Assembly: GCF_018873765.1 (NCBI RefSeq) | Contig: NC_057926.1 | Location: 55,317,378 to 55,381,377, forward strand | Origin: Telopea speciosissima | Lineage: Eukaryota > Streptophyta > Magnoliopsida > Proteales > Proteaceae | DNA length: 64,000 nt | Direction: 5' to 3' | Shown: piece by piece, positions 24,300 to 64,000 of the stretch | Numbering within the stretch: the stretch's first letter is position 1 | How the letters are laid out: each line of letters starts with the position of its first letter | Made by a program: the position numbers and the translations under genes | Notes under the pieces: model-generated | Seen by the model: the letters and a program-made list of their open reading frames with translations, nothing else | Databases searched by the model: none | What the model was told of the DNA's origin: nothing

Positions 24300-25114
24300 T
24301 GTTGCATCAAGAAATCGTTCGACGGTCCTTTCGAGTGCCGTAACCTGCAAAAGGACAAAAGGTGACAATGGAGAACCGGTGTGGTTCCGGCCTAGGACTC
24401 TCCGATGCCAAAGTTAGATCTCCTAAGCAAACAGATGAATGAATAGCATTCAAGATGATTTTATGGGGTAGAGTACCTTCCCTTTTATAGTGGAGTGTGG
24501 CGGTGTGGAGAGTCCCGGTTGATGGTGAGTAATCTTCGTAGTTGATAGAGTCCCTGAGTAGCAAGGCTCATCCTTGATTGGTTGTCTTCCCAAGAGACGT
24601 AGGGTCATGATAGATTTGATAGTTGTCTTCTCGTGAGACGTAGTGTCATGATAGACTTGGTAGTTGTCTTCCCGTGAGACGTAGTGTCATGATAGACTTG
24701 GTATTTGTCTTTCCTGTAGTGTCATGATAGACTTGGTATCCTTGATGGATAGACCCATCTACGTGGTAGATGAGGTTCCTGGTGTATGAGTCCGTCCAAA
24801 CTACGTGATTGGTAGGCGGTGGCTTAGAGTCCTAGAGACAGTGCGTGTCTTGTAGATGGTGACAGTGGTACTCTGATCTACGTCGGCCCGGTACCCGTGC
24901 CTCAATCCATGCGTGCACATAAGGGTTCGTGCTCAAGGGAGTTGTCGCCCAAGGGGGTTAGCGCCCAAGGGTTGCCGCACCCAAGGAGGTTCGCGTCTGT
25001 GGGTGTCGGTGGTCGGCGCCTGCGCTTGGTCTTCTCTTGGCCCCGATATGGTCCTCCTCCTTGGACCAGGCACGTGGTAGCCTCTAATTGGTTGGTGTGA
25101 TTTTGGGTTTATCA
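24300..25114 (-). repeat. 3' LTR of the nested element
   Basis: 815 bp, TGTTGCATCAAG to GGGTTTATCA as written on the plus strand. It contains the core promoter box TATAAAAGG on the minus strand near 24480-24490, and about four 40-bp tandem units (GAGACGTAGTGTCATGATAG) at about 24579-24742. Confidence 0.88.
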
Positions 25115-27931
25115 TTTACCCCCCACTCTCTTGGGTCAGATTGTCCAAGAGAGTAGACTTTGCATTTTTGCTTTGACCCTTGGCGGTTGTCGAACCTTGG
25201 TGGTCTATGGACCTTACTGGCGTTGTGCTTGATGGTCTATGGACCTTGGTGTCATTGCGCCTTGGTGGTCTATTGGCATTGTGCCTTGGTGGTCAACGGA
25301 CCTTGGTGGCAATGCTCCTTGGTAGTCTATGGACCTTAGTAGTATTGTGCCTTGATGGTCAACGGACCTTGGTGGCATTGCGCCTTGGTGGTCTAAGGAC
25401 CTTGGTGGCCTATGGACCTTAGTGGCACTGCGCCTTGGTGGTCTGCGGACCTTGGTGGCCAACAGGCCTTGTTGGCATTACTCCTTGGTGGTCTACGGAC
25501 CTTGGTGGCCAACGGTCCTTGGTGGCATTGTGCCTTGGTGGTCTTTGGACCTTGGTGGCCAACGGGCCTTGGTGGCATTACGCCTTGGTGGTCTACGGAT
25601 CTTGGTGGCCAATGGACCTTGGTGCCATTACACCTTCGTGGTCTGGCCAACAGACCTTGGTGGCATTGTGCCTTGGTGGTCTACGAACCTTGGTGGCCAA
25701 CGGACCTTGGTGGCATTACGCCTTGGTGGCATTGTGCCTTGGTATTCGAACCATCTCCTACTCCACGAACTTCTCAGACTCTGCCTCTAAACCTCGAACT
25801 CTTGACAAATATGACGTCTCGTACTTCCCCTTTTTTTTTACTTGAATTGGTCTTTGGCCACAGACACATCTTTGCTCGAACCTCAACCTCGAACCTTTGC
25901 GAACTCCGACCTTTGACCTCAGACCTCGATCCTCGATCCTTGAACCTCGAACCTTGAACCTCGAACCTTGTCCCTGCCCATGGCCTGTCGCCAACGGCCC
26001 TTGGCCGTGGCCCCCTTTCTTTTTGGTTGATATTGACTAGAATTGGTCTTTGGCCACAGACACATCTTTGCTCAAACCTTGACCTCGAACCCTCATGAAC
26101 TTTGACCTCAGATCTCGGACCTCGAACCCTCACGAACTTCGACCTTGGACCTTGGACCTCGATCCTCGAACCTCGTCTATGGCCAACTTACGGTTCTGCT
26201 GGCCTCGAACCTTTTTTGAACTTGGTCTTTGCTTTTTGGTGCCCCCAAGTGTTTGCTTTTGGGAGGCAATGAATCATGATGCCTTCTGCATGCTTGCTTG
26301 ATCTCTCTTGGCCATTAGCTTCGCTTTGATGGCTTGCCTATCCTTGTGGCTTACCTCCGCACTTCTTGGCTCCTGTCTTGACGCTCGCTCGATGTGATCC
26401 GTGCCCATGACGTTCGTTCGACTCGATCCACGCCCGGCGAAGCTCAGTTGATTTGATCCGCGCCCGTTGATGCTCGTTCGATGTGATCTACGTATGTGAC
26501 GCTCGTTCGACTCGATCCACACCAGGCGACGCTCATTCGATTTGATTCGCGCCCGTTGACGCTCGTTCGATGTGATTCTCGCCTGTGACGCTTGTTCGAT
26601 GTGATTTGCGCTCATGATGCTCGTTTGACTCAATCGACTCCCGATGACTCTCATTCGATTCAATCCGCGCCTGTTGACGCTCGTTCGACTCGATCCACGC
26701 TAGGGCGACGCTCATTCGATTTGGTCCGCGCCCGAAGACGCTCATTAGATTCAGGCCCATTGACGCCCATTCGATGATCCGCGCCCGTGATGCCCATCCT
26801 CCGCGGTCGGTGCCTGGTGTGGATTCTTCTATTTGTTCCTCTTTCTCTTTCGTTTCTCTCTCCTACTTTTTCTCTCTTCTTCTCTTCTTCTCTTCTTCTC
26901 TTCTCCTCTCTTACTTTTTCTGTTACCTTTTCTCTCTTCTCTCTCTTCTCTCTCTTCTCTCTCTCTTGTCCTTTGGTTTTGGGCGGCAATCAATGTTGGA
27001 CTTATTTTTTTTTAATTTTATCTCCCTCTCTTCGATTGGCGCCCCCTTTCTGTCTCTTCTCTCTCCTACCTTTGCTCTCACTCAAGAGTCCACGCCCATG
27101 GCTTTTTGGGCGTGGACCCTTGGTTGCTTTGTTTTTTTTTTTTCGATCTTTCTTTTCTCTCTTCTCTCTCCTACCTTTGCTCTCACTCAAGAGTCTGCGC
27201 CCATGGCTTTTTGGGCGTGGACCCTTGGTCTTTTTTTTCTTTTTAGGTATGTTCGCTCATGGCCCTTCGTCCGCTGTCCGCGGCCCTTGGCGGTTGTCGC
27301 ACCCATCTGGGTTCCGCGTTCATCGTCTCTGGTCCACGGCTGTGACGCTCGTTTGATTCGGTTCTGTGCTCCTCTCCATTGGTCTATGCCTGTCTTCTCT
27401 GGTATATAAAATATTTGTTGTTCCTTGGTCTTTGGCCATAGACACACCTTTACTTGAACCTTGACCTTGACTCCTCGCGAACTTCATCCTTGGACTTTGA
27501 ACCTCGTCCTTGTCCATGGTCTGTTGTCTACGGCCCTTGGCCGTGGCAAATTTTTTTTTTTTTTTGTCGGACCTCTGGATTCAGCACTTTGGATTGTACA
27601 TATTGTGACGTCTTTCCCTTGCTACTTAAGGTTAAATTCTCATCTTCTTCGCGTACTGTTCCTCGTTGTTGATGCGTATGGTCTATTGACCTTAGTAGTC
27701 ATTCGATCTTGGCGACCTAGGGTTTCGATGGTTACCTGGGACCTCCCTCTCCTGAGAGACAGGGTTATTGGCTCTGCGATGCGAACTCACTGAAGGAGGT
27801 GATCCGTTCCCCTCCCTCGCAACATTGTTGGTGGAGGGAGCGGTCTTCTTACCCCGTGGTGCCATTGAGTAATTATGGAAACAAGCTAGTAGGTACGATG
27901 GCTAGCATCATTCCCACAGACGGCGCCAATC
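25115..27931. repeat. Interior of the LTR element: arrays of simple tandem repeats
   Basis: Five blocks are visible. 25195-25750 has CCTTGGTGGTCTACGGAC / CCTTGGTGGCCAAC units. About 25880-26180 is rich in GAACCTCGAACCTT. About 26380-26780 has GACGCTCGTTCGACTCGATC units of about 40 bp. 26830-26975 is a CT tract. At 27056-27121 and 27165-27230 there is a tandem duplication with CACGCCCATGGCTTTTTGGG. Long open frames cross these arrays on both strands but only encode the repeats. Confidence 0.8.
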
Positions 27932-56799: not shown

Positions 56800-59700
56800 C
56801 TAGGCACTGGTATTAGGTGTAGTGGACAGGCTGACCCACTTATCGGTAACGGAATCCGGCGAAAATGGTGGATCAATAGTCTTCAACAACCCTATTTTGT
56901 CTGTCTGAATAACTAACTTTGCCTTCTCCACTTTGTAGTCTTCCTTCTCAATTCCCTTCAAAGTCTCCAACACCTCATCCATGGAAGGCCTCAATTCCTT
57001 CTCAAGTTGCAGACAACGAAATGCCAACTCTGCCACTGATGTTGTCATCATCTTTACTGCATTATCTGATTCAAACCCAAGAGATGGATCAACCAACTCA
57101 TGCAATGCTTGATTTTGGATCTTGTTGATAGCCATGTTAGCCAAATTAATCTCATTATGATGCCTATTGATATCTACAGCAGGCTTTGATGATATGAGCT
57201 CAATCAAGACCACACCAAAGCTATATACATCACTCTTGTCTGTAAGCTGGTAGCATTGATGATACTCAGGGTCTACATACCCTGGAGTCCCCTGTGGTGC
57301 AGTGGAGACATGGGTAACATCTGTGGGGAAGAGACGGGAGAGCCCGAAATCTGCAACTTTAACACCAAAATTGCTGTCAAGGAGAATGTTGGTAGTTTTC
57401 ACATCACGGTGTATAACATCAGAAGCATGGAGGAAAGCCAGTGCACTTGCTGTCTCTATGGCAATGCTCATCCGGGTAGGCCAAGTGACTGACCCAGCTT
57501 CTGATCTATTACCATGAAGATGATCAGCCACAGTACCATTAGGAATGAACTCATAAACAAGGAGGAGTTCACGGCTATGTCGTGAGGTGCAACCATAGAG
57601 CTTGACAAGGTTTTGATGGCGTAAACGAGTAAGGATCTCAACTTCATTCATGAATTGTTCAACTCGTCTGTAGTTGTTTTCATAAAGGCGCTTAACTGCA
57701 ACCTCACGACCATCCTTGAGTTTGCCTGGACAAGAAAATTGGAAGAAAATGATGCTCCATTAATTAAGGTGGTGATCGAAGAAGGGTGAAATATATAAAG
57801 CCTAGCTAGCCATAAAAACACAATAAAAGATGTTGTTTCTAGCTTCTTACTCACCATAGTATACAGTGCCAAAGCCACCATCTCCAAGTTCTTTACTAGA
57901 ATTGAAGTTGTTAGTTGCTTCTTCAAGTTCAGCATAATTGAAGACATGAACTCCGAAGTAGGTGCTGCCCTTTTCAATGTCCTTCAAGGAGGATTTGGAA
58001 GTGAATTTTCTAGAGAGAGAAGTTGTAGAAACAGAGGTGCTTTTGCTTTTGAATGGAGTGAAGAGGCCTTCCTTGGGATGGCGTCGTCGGTAGATGACGA
58101 AGAACAGGCATGATAAAAGGATTACCCCAGCAAGACAGCCAAAGACTAAGAAAGATAATGAAATAGAATGATCAATAAAGGAGTCTTTAGCAATTGGCCG
58201 GAATAGATTTTGGATCTATTAGAATGTATTCTGAAAACTGATTCTTTTTTATTTTTTCGTTTCAGAATGCATTGTAAACCTAGAATCTATCCCGAAAATA
58301 CATACCAAACACAGTCTAAGTCCAAAATAATAGGAAAAAAAAAAATCCATTCTTAGAATTATAACAATGAGTTCGAACATTAAATTCAAATATTGAAACT
58401 ACAAGACGAGTGTTACCTATTCCAAGAATCGCTGGCCAAGGTAGGGTGTTCTCTGCCACAAAATCATGAGAACGAACAGATTATCAGTTTGAATAATCAA
58501 CTCTGAATGTGGATCTCTCACAAAAAATCTCAATCTCATCAGTGATTGAAAAAAAAAAAAATTGAGCTAGACTTGCTTGTTCATGAATTTTACCATAATG
58601 CCCCTCATTCCCATTAAAATACAAACTACTTTATTTAAGTATAGCTTGGTAAAATGATCTATGTAACCTTTGTTTTAATATGTTCTAAATCAGCATGTGG
58701 GGATTAAAACAAAATTGAAAAAAGTTCTACTGTAATCAAGCTTGGTTACACCAAGAATAACTTATAGAAATAATAGGTAAATCATATCCACTAAGCATGG
58801 TGAGGATCATGGTTTTAAATATCCGTATTGGTATTGGTGTTGGTATTGGTCTCTGTCGATAGGCCCGTATCAAACGGTTCTGTCTCATTTTTAAAAAAAA
58901 TAAATTGAATTTTGGACCATTTTACCCTTACCATAGACTGTTACATCAATATGGTATTGGCCAATGGATGGACGGATATCGATTTTCTTAGAAACCACAT
59001 TGAAGATGGCTTGCCCAACACGAATAGGTCTGCTCGGAAAAATAAATTATCTACAGTGTCCTAATCTTCTGGTGCACTGCAGTATGGGCCTGAAAGCTTG
59101 ACACGTGGATGATACGACATCCAACGGTACCGAGCTCAAGAAGAAAGAAAAAAAAACTACCTTGAATCGAATTCGCATCATTGGATAAAGCTTTTTTCAT
59201 GTGTCGAGCTCTTAGGCCCGCACTGCACTATATCACAAGATACCCACATTGTAGAGGATTTTAATCCAAGTCTGCTCATACATTTTGAAGAGAGAAAGAG
59301 AGCCGTATGGAGCATGGTTCATAGTAGGGAGGGAATCAAGAGATTTGCTTTGACTTGGTTTCGTTTCGTAAGACTTACAGCTGTTCTTTCTAGCCAAAAA
59401 AATTTTTAAAAAAAAAGAATTACGGCTGTTGGGAAAGTCACAGCCGTCCAACCTAAGGCAGAGACCATATCTGAGAAAATTTAATATACAACTAAGACTA
59501 TATTATATATATATATATATGTCCCCACAAGTCCCATAGAGACAGAACCGTCCAAGCTATTCAATATATAATATCCTACATATTTCAAATTTGACCTTCA
59601 ACTTTCCAGTCATAAAACTTCTCATCGAAGCCATTCTTTTCTGTCATCTTCTCACAAATGAACAACACCAAAAAATGGGGATAAAAAAAAAGACTTAAAA

Positions 59701-60919
59701 AAGAAGGATGCAATGAAATGAAAAGGACTGATGAGTTATAATTAAATAATATCCTCTAACTAGGCTTTACCTAACCAGTTGATGAATAAGTTTGAATTAT
59801 CTGATTCTGTTCTCATTTTATTCAACTTTGAACAGTGTCTAATCACCTAAGTATTGGAATGACAGAAGATCCTGACCGTTGGATATATGCTAAATATACA
59901 GATGGCAAGATCCTGCATTTTTTTAGGGACCCCTACAGAGAATAGAATAAATGGACCACTAAGGCAGGTAATCTGCCCTCCTTTGACATATCAATCAAAA
60001 ACCTCCAATGGATGCTAAGATGGATTAATGCAAAGAAACAATAAAAGCAAAATGTTAAAAAAAAAAGTTTGATAGATTAATCGAAAAAAATATATACTCA
60101 AGAGAAAGAAGAATTGGGAATGGTGGATGAGGACTTACCTGTGCAGCTTTGGCCATTGGATCCATTGGGGCAAAGGCACAAGAACTGTTTCTTGTAATAT
60201 CCACAGCGACCACCGCTTGCGTCGCATTTACTGCAATTACTACTCTCAGTCCATTCCAACATAAACCCTCTACTTAACAAATCCGAGTAGCTCGTCCCTA
60301 CCAAATCCTTTGAACTCATACCAGTCATGTCTACGGGTGCACTCACTGTAGACTTGCAGGTGTGAAAAGTATAATTCAGGTACGGCCATCCCAAATCGTT
60401 TTCAAACAAGGCGAACGAATGATTCCCAGTAACATTGGTCGAACAATTAACAGGGAATTGATACTCTGAGGAGATGGGTTTTGTGCAGTTATAGAAGAAT
60501 AAGAGATTAGAGGGTGTGTGACCGAACTCGAAAGGAGTATTGTTGAGGGTAAAATTATGCAGAGGAACAGGGCAACTGTTGGACTCTGCTTCGCTGTTCA
60601 CCATCAGAAGCGAGTGGTTAGCATAGAAGATGTCTCTGATGAGGTAGTTTTCGTCGGTAATCAGGAGGGTTGGTTCATTGTCCAAGCAGGTTATCTCGTA
60701 ACCTGGGTTGCCGCAGTAGTTTTTATGCACAAGAGGAATCCAGAAAGGAAAACTTATGTTTGGACCATGGCCACAGCTCTGAGGCTCGCAAGCTTCGAAT
60801 TTTGGGTCTACTGATTTGGCTTCTTGAATTACGGCACTGAAGAGAAGGAGAAGAAGGAGGAAGAGGGTGGTATTCATCAATTCAGGGAAGAAATTCCTGT
60901 CACTGAAAGAGTAACTCAT
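56800..60919 (-). CDS. LRK10L: LRK10L1.2-like receptor kinase F (most canonical member)
   Basis: Exons: 60919-60139, 58452-58417, 58145-57855 and 57725-56800; phase 1; 677 residues from the ATG at 60919 (MSYSFSDRN). An internal ATG at 60877 ([16 protein letters not shown]) would start directly at the signal peptide and is equally plausible. The ectodomain has the full pattern: [29 protein letters not shown], and the complete WAK_assoc end [20 protein letters not shown] followed by [12 protein letters not shown]. Mini-exon: [12 protein letters not shown]. Transmembrane segment at [19 protein letters not shown]. The kinase has [25 protein letters not shown] and [10 protein letters not shown], all intact. 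Intron 1 is long (1.7 kb, with a foldback). In Arabidopsis, LRK10L1.2 is linked to ABA and drought responses; that role is not shown here. Confidence 0.94.
59060..59240. repeat. Foldback element in intron 1 of receptor kinase F
   Basis: The left arm GGTGCACTGCAGTATGGGCC and GAAAGCTTGACACGTGG pairs with the right arm CATGTGTCGAGCTCTTAGG and CCCGCACTGCACTATATCAC. A (TA)n tract follows at about 59502-59520. Confidence 0.68.
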
Positions 60920-63039
60920 TTGGGAAGAAGGGATCAAAGAAAACAGGGGAGGAGAGCGTAAGAAGAGAGGAAATTAGATGGGGGGGAGATGTAAGGAAAA
61001 CGAGGAGAGGAATCATTGTTGAATGGTGAATTGGCGATTGCTCCTTTGTGGGTTGGTGCGAGTTTGACTTCGTGACACCATCTTATTTTAATTTTTAGCT
61101 TCCCTTTGTTCCTCTGGTTTGAACTAATTTCAGGTATGTCTCCATTGATTGGAGATCTAGAGTAGAGAAATTGGGAAAAGTTCCCTCCCAACTAACAAAA
61201 GACAAAAGCATCTATCTATATATATATTTATAATGGTGCATCTGGAAGCAACAGCTCAGTTTCAAGCATATATATGGACCCATGGTGAAGGAAGAATCTT
61301 TTCACCATAGGCTTTTAAATCGTTTAATTGAACTCACGAGATAGGGGTATTTGTGACCATGAATAAATGGAGAATCGAAGTTAACTATGAATCCAAAATC
61401 CAATCATAAGATCGCATCATCAGTGGAGAAGGAATTCTACATCTTCTATATAGTCAAATATGAGAATATGTCTAAAAAGAAAAAGAAAAATAAACTAGAC
61501 TTAATCAAAGCTTCAAAGGAATCATCTTTTGTAACAGATGTTTGAGCATGGACCATCCAATTGGAATAATCTTTTTTTTCTTTATATGGGTTCAAAGTGG
61601 TTATATAGGGGAGGACCAGCCCACTAGGAGAAAGCAATGTTTGTACTCTTTGAGTCTTGACTCTTTAAAATGGTGTTTCCCTTGCCATGCAAGTTAGGGC
61701 AACTGGGAAAATATGTAGTGAAACAGGGGCAATTCTGGTAGTTTGAACTTTGATCTGTTTTGCTTTGTTGAACCGAAGGGTGTTGACTTAGGGAGGGGGA
61801 GGGGGAAATAGAAGAAACGTCTTCTGCTTTCTCAAAGAGACATGGACGGCAAGTATTAATGATGAATTGAGACTTTTGATTACCAAGAATGCCTCTTGCA
61901 TATTCAAAAGGGAATTAGATGAAGAGATGACGACAATACAGAGATTATAAACTTAGAATTGAGATTCGGAATCGGTGTAAAATCAGTTATAATCGGTCAA
62001 AATATGTCCTAACATTATTTTCATTTAAGGATCGACGAGCCGAATGCGATCCCGATTCATAAAAATCCTACCCTGGGACAAGACGAAGGCCAGCTAGTTC
62101 GGCGGTGATCTTACAAGCAAAGACAAATTAATAGGTGTGGAAGTAAGTTAACCCTACCTGAACAAATATTGAAATTTACGTACTTAATAGGTTATTGGTA
62201 TTGACTGTTGAGGAGCTGAGGTAGGTAGATCGCTTCCCACTTTCACAAAGTCAAAAAACACTTCTCCTTCAATCACGGCGGCTCCAATCCAATGGATGGT
62301 TTTTCAATTTGAAATCTATCTTCTTATAATATGAGAATCCAAGAACGGCTAACTCCCACCGTTCTAAATTCTTAACTTCTATTTCTTGCAGATAATCCAA
62401 AGAGGGGAGGCACACATAAATATATCAATGATACTAATTAGGGAAAAGATTCTCTGAGCCAACTACATGTATCACTCTACTCAATGAAATAAGAACCTTC
62501 GACCTTCCCATGTACAAATTCCCGTTTCGCTGTCCCTATGCCATTTGCTCAAAGAACCTTCTTCTTCTTATTATTTAATACGTTATCATATAAATCTCTT
62601 ATCATACATCTTTCTATTTGACATCTACAAGCAGGGATTTAGTTCACCGTATCATGATTGATATTGATCGTCGATGAAACTGTTACTGATAGCATAATGG
62701 ATCCTTAATGTGTATCAATTCACCATTTTTTTTTTTCATTTAACAAAAAAAAAACAATCATATACTTATTGTATCGGGTGATCCGTATGGACCAATTATA
62801 GGTATAGAATACAACCAATACAGACATATATATCAATATGTAAGAAGGTCTTTGGGTGTGAATCAGCGGTGGTGTCGGATTGGTGGAAATCAGGATCGAT
62901 CACAGCTGATTTTGATCCGAATCGATCAATTCCCGATTCTTAAAACCATGGCGAGGAATGAGGATTGCTGAGATAGTATGTATATAAGAAGAAGAATAGG
63001 AAGCAAATGAGACGAAGAGGTGGACGTAGTAATACGTAC
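60920..63039. other. Region between ectodomain exons F and G
   Basis: I searched both strands for transmembrane, mini-exon or kinase sequence that would complete gene G and found none. The region contains the promoter of F, an AT-rich stretch and ATCGGTCAAAATATG / CGATCAATTCCCGATTCT dispersed-repeat sequence near 61970-62080 and 62870-62940. Confidence 0.6.
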
Positions 63040-63874
63040 CTTGGGGTTGGGGACACATAGTATCGTAAGCTTGATCGGTGCAAAAGCAAGTAGGTTTGCC
63101 CAAAGTGGTGTTATAACCACATGTCCCACCCGATTCCATGCACATCGCACAGTCTCCATCAACGATGGCAAACCACTGCAACACGAAACCCCCAACAAGA
63201 ATTGTGCCAAGAGCTGACGAATTATATAGAATCTCCTCTACATTCGTTTCATGAACAGGAACGATGACAATTCTGTTGCAGCCTCCTTTCATGGAAAGTT
63301 CTTCTGCTTGGACTTCATCGAATCCGACTGTAAATGGAACTAAGCCACTACTACCCTCCCCATTATTGACGCTGCAAGTAACATCACCCACTTTAACTGG
63401 TTTCGGATTTCCATTAACCATGACGGAGGAGTTGGAAGCGCAACCGAAGAATAGAGTCAAATTGATGTAACCAGAAGCATAATTGAAGATGGTGTAATTG
63501 AAGGTGGTGTTTACAAGGACTCCTCCGCCGCCGCCGGAAGTGCAAATTGAATCTTCAGATAAACCATTCTTGACGATCTTCATGGTTCGGTTATCAGTAA
63601 TGATATCAAGAACACGGTAGTCTTGTGTTTCAATCGTAATCGTAGCTTTCTGGTTTCCCACGCATTGAAGATCAAATTCTGGGTACCCACAGTAATCTCG
63701 TCTTGTATTTGCATTGAAAGGGTATTTGATCATTTGTGGGATATTTCCACACTTGAACTGCGAGGGTGTGCAGTTTGAATATCTATAGTCATATTCAGGT
63801 AAGGATGATGAGAAGGGGAAGAAGATGAAGATGGCGATGATCAATGGGAAGAACAACATCTGAGGAATATACAT
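63040..63874 (-). CDS. LRK10L: LRK10L ectodomain exon G without its own kinase
   Basis: Starts MYIPQMLFFPLIIAIFIFF (signal peptide), then CTPSQFKCGNIPQMIKYPF and CGYPEFDLQC (GUB_WAK_bind-like). It ends with a full WAK_assoc-like cluster CAMCMESGGTCGYN and CFCTDQAYDTMCPQPQ. After the last codons comes a good donor, CAAG|GTACGT, leaving phase 1. The frame running on past the donor ends at 62900 and has no motif. No kinase exon follows before gene F starts. Three readings are possible: an alternative first exon for gene F (splicing to 58452 would give [17 protein letters not shown] in frame), a secreted ectodomain protein made by reading into the intron, or a remnant of a gene that lost its kinase. 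The N-terminal region is complete, and the 5' UTR runs to the window end. Confidence 0.85.
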
Positions 63875-64000
63875 AAGGAGGAAGGAAACTGGATCAATAA
63901 TACTCTCTCAATACTCAAAAACTAATGAAGAGAAGAGAGACTTTAGATGGAGCTCAAATTATAGAGAATATGTTCAGGAGGAGGAGGAGGAGTTTGGGAT

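Follow-up and report, generated by a model that had tools for sequence, protein, structure and literature searches.

Ectodomain exons and common exons at the C11 locus

We examined a 64,000-nucleotide stretch of the Telopea speciosissima genome (the window; NC_057926.1, C11:55317378-55381377 in our contig numbering), near the end of which two ectodomain exons, G and F, lie ahead of the mini-exon, the transmembrane (TM)/juxtamembrane exon and the kinase exon of an LRK10-like (WAK-related) receptor-kinase gene (Table 1). Genome searches covered the 822.9-Mb assembly of 1287 contigs, the large ones being designated C1-C11. A profile search of the genome gave two GUB_WAK_bind matches upstream of G, at C11:55385286 and C11:55389281, which correspond to two further ectodomain exons, H and I, and the exon order at C11 was I-H-G-F-mini-exon-TM-kinase.

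PF13947 (GUB_WAK_bind) and PF14380 (WAK_assoc) scored above the cut-off in all eight ectodomain exons given to Pfam, namely G, F, H, I and exons A, B, C and D of a paralogous array on C2 described below; for the fifth C2 exon, E, both domains were matched in the genome-wide domain searches. The kinase domain was found by Pfam in the kinase exon, and the TM exon gave no Pfam match. In G and F, the start codon is followed by a signal-like, hydrophobic N-terminus. Identity among the four C11 ectodomains was 24-34%. When joined to the common exons, each of the four ectodomain exons produced one open frame (I, 682 amino acids (aa); H, 677 aa; G, 690 aa; F, 663 aa), and by the coordinates of these joins the first introns would be ~13.0 kb for I, ~9.0 kb for H, ~4.6 kb for G and ~1.7 kb for F.

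Table 1. Features of the C11 array (window positions, unless a contig is named)
Feature	Position	Strand	Remarks
Ectodomain exon G, type T2	63874-63040	-	ATG 63874, second ATG 63859; GUB_WAK_bind and WAK_assoc; phase-1 donor AAG/GTACGT
Ectodomain exon F, type T3	60919-60139	-	ATG 60919; GUB_WAK_bind and WAK_assoc; phase-1 donor CAG/GTAAGT; kinase-proximal
Common mini-exon	58452-58417	-	36 nt, phase 1 in and out; equally long homologues in C11b and at C2:52909962
Common transmembrane/juxtamembrane exon	58145-57855	-	Hydrophobic stretch identified by eye
Common kinase exon, including stop codon	57725-56800	-	Over 307 codons, 83% identity with its C2 counterpart
Window edge	63875-64000	-	Array extends upstream, outside the window, to H and I
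Ectodomain exon H, type T2	C11:55385612-55384832	-	Open frame ending in phase 1; outside the window
Ectodomain exon I, type T1	C11:55389592-55388797	-	Open frame ending in phase 1; outside the window

The first-pass annotation had described G and F as two complete ectodomain exons ahead of a single mini-exon/TM/kinase set, both ending in phase 1 with good donors and both accepted in frame by the mini-exon; all of this was borne out. Its proposal that G is an alternative first exon for the kinase of F stands as the best-supported reading, and the proposed unit has grown from two first exons to four here and five in the paralogue. Judging from the sequence, we consider it probable that the locus is one LRK10-like gene whose first exons, I-H-G-F, form an array and are mutually exclusive. 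Each first exon would supply its own start codon, signal sequence and complete extracellular domain. Transcripts would begin from a promoter ahead of one first exon, the donor of the chosen exon would be joined to the acceptor of the single mini-exon, and any first exons lying in between would leave with the long first intron. One TM-kinase unit would thereby receive one of four sensors, presumably for different ligands.

All of these exons run collinearly on the same strand, which would also fit splicing of G (or H or I) to F as an internal exon, with two tandem ectodomains in the resulting receptor; one Arabidopsis gene model is annotated with two ectodomains of this kind. This outcome appears extremely improbable, because F and the other downstream exons retain their own start codon and hydrophobic N-terminus, and because no AG was seen by eye in the 54 open bases ahead of the F start codon (AGs in the signal-coding part of F were not systematically covered).

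Search for further kinase, TM and mini-exon sequences

We searched ten stretches by tblastn with the F kinase, the F TM exon and a kinase of another LRK10-like subfamily as queries; the positive control was matched, and no TM or kinase relic was found between G and F at E ≤ 1. The sole match in the ten stretches (E = 0.59) was rejected as spurious. Inspection of the open reading frames (ORFs) by eye revealed no kinase frame upstream of G toward H and I, among ORFs of at least 100 aa in one stretch and at least 120 aa in the other. Between C11:55375136 and exon I, no kinase was present among the matches listed by two genome kinase searches, nor was one detected by tblastn of the stretches.

A second mini-exon was likewise not found between G and F, where the best match bounded by AG and GT agreed at 16 of 36 bases; the three known mini-exons agree with one another at 20-28 of 36. 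Across all eight stretches between array exons, the best such matches reached 11-17 of 36, as against 23, 28 and 28 in three positive stretches. One mini-exon was found per locus.

Paralogous arrays and ectodomain types

Among the matches listed, the closest relative of the F kinase was located at C2:52910664, with 82% identity (83% over the 307 codons of Table 1). Upstream of this kinase lie five ectodomain exons on the same strand, A-E, with coding sequences starting at 52889991, 52895954, 52900152, 52906308 and 52907959, and no other kinase occurred within the C2 array among ORFs of at least 100 aa. The C2 mini-exon at 52909962 also has 36 bases and the same phase as that of C11. Full joins were built for the C11 exons, and for C2 the exons and the mini-exon were compared and agree in phase. 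The five other kinases most like that of F, among the matches listed, are all in the window and have one ectodomain each; three of them showed 74-81% identity over most of the exon, and two showed 70-72%. These five tandem LRK10-like genes carry the same or related domains and a kinase, but differ from the array in having one ectodomain exon per kinase.

A third, damaged array, C11b (C11:55236000-55262000; 55.24-55.26 Mb), contains exons I' (split), H' and F', followed by a 36-base homologue of the mini-exon and by the TM-kinase unit of another LRK10-like subfamily. I' (C11:55254782-55260574) is split by an insert at 55255648-55258930, in which copia-like frames were recognized by eye, and its halves match adjoining parts of I. 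BLASTN of the I-H stretch of C11 against C11:55247929-55260556 gave four pieces with 84-95% identity, including 86.8% over 3,212 bases and 94.8% over 1,106 bases. On these alignments, the I-H parts of C11 and C11b are a recent segmental copy. Unlike this copy, F and F' matched at only 69% by BLASTN.

The ectodomain tree comprised 21 rows, 18 of them array and comparison exons and three taken from the eight distant loci L001-L008; C11:55238041, whose donor was unassigned, was omitted. Four types were resolved: T1 (I, A and B), T2 (G, C, H, H' and one C1 exon), T3 (F, D and F') and T4 (E and another C1 exon), with support of 98/96 for T2 and 100/99 for T1, T3 and T4. G and C formed long branches. 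Identity was 21-39% between types, and within T2 the exons G, C and H shared only 32-35%. The types occur in the same order in all three arrays: T1-T2-T2-T3 at C11, T1-T1-T2-T3-T4 at C2 and T1 (broken)-T2-T3 at C11b. Synonymous divergence (dS) was 0.39 for the C11/C2 kinase pair, 0.50 for F-D and 0.55-0.63 for I-B and I-A, values that are in keeping with one duplication; the kinase-exon comparison took in six of the seven kinase exons, w41 and its two pairs being left out. An origin of the C11 and C2 arrays by whole-genome duplication received no support from the neighbour-gene search, in which one neighbour gene was used per locus and no copy of it appeared in the match lists beside the other array.

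Retention of splice donors and selection on kinase-less exons

A phase-1 GT, picked by eye among the phase-1 GTs, was present at the homologous end of all nine exons of the C11 and C2 arrays. Six of the seven exons that are not proximal to the kinase (I, H, G, A, B, C and D) have the motif GTRNGT at the homologous place, whereas composition shuffles of each 120-nt stretch gave it, at any in-phase position, in 1-9% of cases. The chance of at least six GTRNGT motifs together by shuffling would be 5e-8 if the exons were independent, which, being relatives, they are not. In all six T1/T2 pairs (I-A, I-B, A-B, G-C, G-H and H-C), the donor hexamer is kept at five or six of the six bases, whereas the next 200 intron bases align at only 41-65%. 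Donors were also scored with a hand-entered plant 5' splice-site matrix. By this matrix, the G donor outscored 99.9% of the 14,763 GTs in the C11 and C2 stretches, and the seven non-proximal exons scored 2.9-7.5, compared with -0.3 to 4.9 for the five one-ectodomain genes of the window; the donor of w41, an ordinary exon, was chosen by eye and is unsure.

We estimated the ratio of nonsynonymous to synonymous divergence (dN/dS) for exon pairs. The six T1/T2 pairs, none of which has a kinase of its own, all gave 0.44-0.60 with 95% bootstrap upper bounds of 0.65-0.84, and on these estimates the kinase-less exon pairs of T1 and T2 are under purifying selection. For other pairs, the ratios were 0.56 (0.37-0.83) for D-F', 0.47 (0.33-0.68) for E and its C1 relative and 0.66 (0.46-0.98) for F-D.

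These ratios bear on the possibility that the extra exons are functionless remnants of tandem duplicates that lost their kinase parts by deletion. The broken I' of C11b, with its copia-like insert, shows that such exons can decay, and the ratio for H and its C1 relative (0.78; 0.52-1.21) is indistinguishable from neutral. We nevertheless find decay of this kind very unlikely: the eight other non-proximal exons (I, H, G, A, B, C, D and H') all have an open frame and a phase-1 GT, the upper bounds of dN/dS lie below 0.85 in all six T1/T2 pairs, and tblastn of the ten stretches detected no kinase or TM relic.

Upstream regions and possible read-through past the donors

Alternative first exons would be expressed from separate promoters, and we compared the regions upstream of the ectodomain exons. 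By eye, the upstream stretches of F and D look alike, as do, near the start codon, those of I, A and B. On the other side of the exons, a stop codon is reached 9-46 codons past the donor in all seven non-proximal exons of C11 and C2 if the frame is read through, and G and C are alike in frame for about nine codons past the donor (GTYYYVHLFVS and GTYYVHLFS), which could hint at translated read-through.

The nearby stops and the likeness of G and C both suit the main rival explanation, that I, H and G are independent small genes whose products, translated past the donor to a nearby stop, are secreted ectodomain proteins lacking a kinase, and that only F serves the kinase. Ectodomain exons without a kinase seem to occur elsewhere in the genome, which makes stand-alone ectodomain genes a fair rival. 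The 29 WAK_assoc matches of the genome search, from whose list the window's five ordinary ectodomain exons are absent, were sorted by hand: at least 15 have a same-strand kinase downstream before the next such exon, nine are members of the three arrays (A, B, C, D, G, H, I, H' plus the C-terminal half of I') and five have no listed kinase. Two of these five were inspected, L032 (C3:10.02 Mb) and L033 (C4:70.29 Mb); among minus-strand ORFs of at least 90 aa, neither is followed by a kinase in the next 5-5.5 kb, and they are possible stand-alone ectodomain genes. A secreted protein, however, has no need of a donor, yet a phase-1 GT is kept at the homologous place in all seven non-proximal exons. 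Apart from the nine codons of G and C, the read-through tails are unlike in length and sequence, and the exons hold one type order upstream of the kinase. We therefore judge secreted proteins to be an unlikely explanation.

Several observations weigh against an array of alternative first exons, among them the likeness of G and C past the donor and the near-neutral ratio of H and its C1 relative. The H-H' pair gave a dN/dS of 1.44, on very few changes. The donor of I is an unusual GTTCGT, E and its C1 relative agree at three of six donor bases, and an initial donor scan with a threshold of 4.5 passed G, F, A, B, C, D and F' and missed I, H, E and H'. No TATA box was found within 350 bases of the start codon in the seven non-proximal exons, a result of little weight given that two of the six kinase-proximal exons of the window have one, and the upstream alignment contained no clear block common to G and C. 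The G-C and H-C pairs have a dS of ~1.35, as against 0.39-0.63 for the kinase, F-D, I-A and I-B pairs, indicating that simple copying of the array as a whole does not account for its descent and leaving one-to-one descent within T2 unsupported. Owing to the recent I-H segmental copy, moreover, the three arrays are not independent, and C11 versus C2 is the only fairly independent comparison among them. The alternative-first-exon reading is favoured because of the in-frame joins, the retention of donors while introns drifted, purifying selection, the finding of neither a kinase nor a mini-exon belonging to the upstream exons, the same layout at a second locus and the Arabidopsis precedent described below.

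Probable exchange between kinase subfamilies

At C1:63700003-63716594, T2 and T4 ectodomain exons each stand directly ahead of a kinase of the other subfamily, indicating that these ectodomain types are common to two kinase subfamilies. The C1 genes with this kinase seem to carry the mini-exon too (one clear case, at C1:63714.9 kb). For C11b, a recombination event within the intron that follows the mini-exon is therefore likely.

Taken together, the data incline us, with some reserve, toward a broader proposal, that plants have cassette receptor loci, where one kinase is served by an ordered set of four or five widely divergent wall-sensor first exons, each under its own promoter. Two paralogous loci would have retained this set, and recombination in the intron downstream of the mini-exon could transfer it from one kinase subfamily to another; sensor and output would then evolve as separate modules.

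Comparison with known systems

A mini-exon between the ectodomain and TM exons is a known feature of Arabidopsis LRK10L genes; here, the 36-nt exon was found at C11, C2 and C11b. Arabidopsis LRK10L3 and AT1G18390, the latter being the LRK10L1 locus, belong to the LRK10-like family and have two alternative first exons each, as against four candidates at C11 and five at C2. The available text of one report describes peptide support for both first-exon isoforms of LRK10L3, which is given there without a locus number; the isoforms have distinct ectodomains and a common TM and kinase (PMC13136898).

Plant alternative first exons of type I share with this arrangement mutually exclusive first exons and common downstream exons. 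In the accessible part of a survey, 137 type I clusters are given for rice and 99 for Arabidopsis, with a changed N-terminus in 53 and 20 and an overlapped functional domain in 5 and 1, respectively (PMC2174465). That part makes no mention of four or five whole ectodomains in a row, and the words 'tandem' and 'kinase' are absent from the entire text of the survey. The genomic layout of C11 fits type I, all four possible first exons joining the common exons in compatible phase.

At the UGT1A and clustered protocadherin loci of vertebrates, one set of constant exons is preceded by a row of variable first exons, every one of which has a promoter and a donor of its own. The Telopea arrays resemble them, in genomic layout, in having more than two putative variable first exons (four at C11, five at C2) before one constant part. 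They differ in that the former are animal loci encoding unrelated proteins, and promoter choice is known there, whereas it is deduced here.

Within the LRK10 literature, the available text of a strawberry paper describes a first-exon insertion (PMC11899574), and that of a maize review mentions an LRK10L gene with unspecified alternative splicing (PMC9024592). Arrays of four or five first exons were absent from the top-ranked literature matches, mostly non-subscription papers; database gene models of other plants may already contain such isoforms. The form with two first exons is already known from Arabidopsis, and as far as these listings show, rows of such a length, four exons at one locus and five at another, are new.

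If the arrays function as proposed, a tally of receptor kinases based on their kinase domains would, at loci of this kind, fall several-fold short of the number of plant sensors, and any models annotating G, H or I as receptor-like proteins that lack a kinase would be incorrect. One kinase with four sensors under separate promoters would constitute a natural experiment on whether different wall or pathogen signals are fed into the same output, and the C11b array, with a kinase of another subfamily attached through the same mini-exon, would demonstrate module exchange.

Other loci and features

A tandem cluster at C7:7.76-7.82 Mb with related domains and kinases was considered as an eleven-exon array and rejected. 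It has a kinase per ectodomain: a kinase frame precedes the next ectodomain in ten of the eleven cases, and the eleventh is a fragment with a stop codon. Elsewhere in the window, positions 24581-27244 contain overlapping tandem repeats with many periods from 2 to 118, in which several long overlapping open frames are probably not genes.

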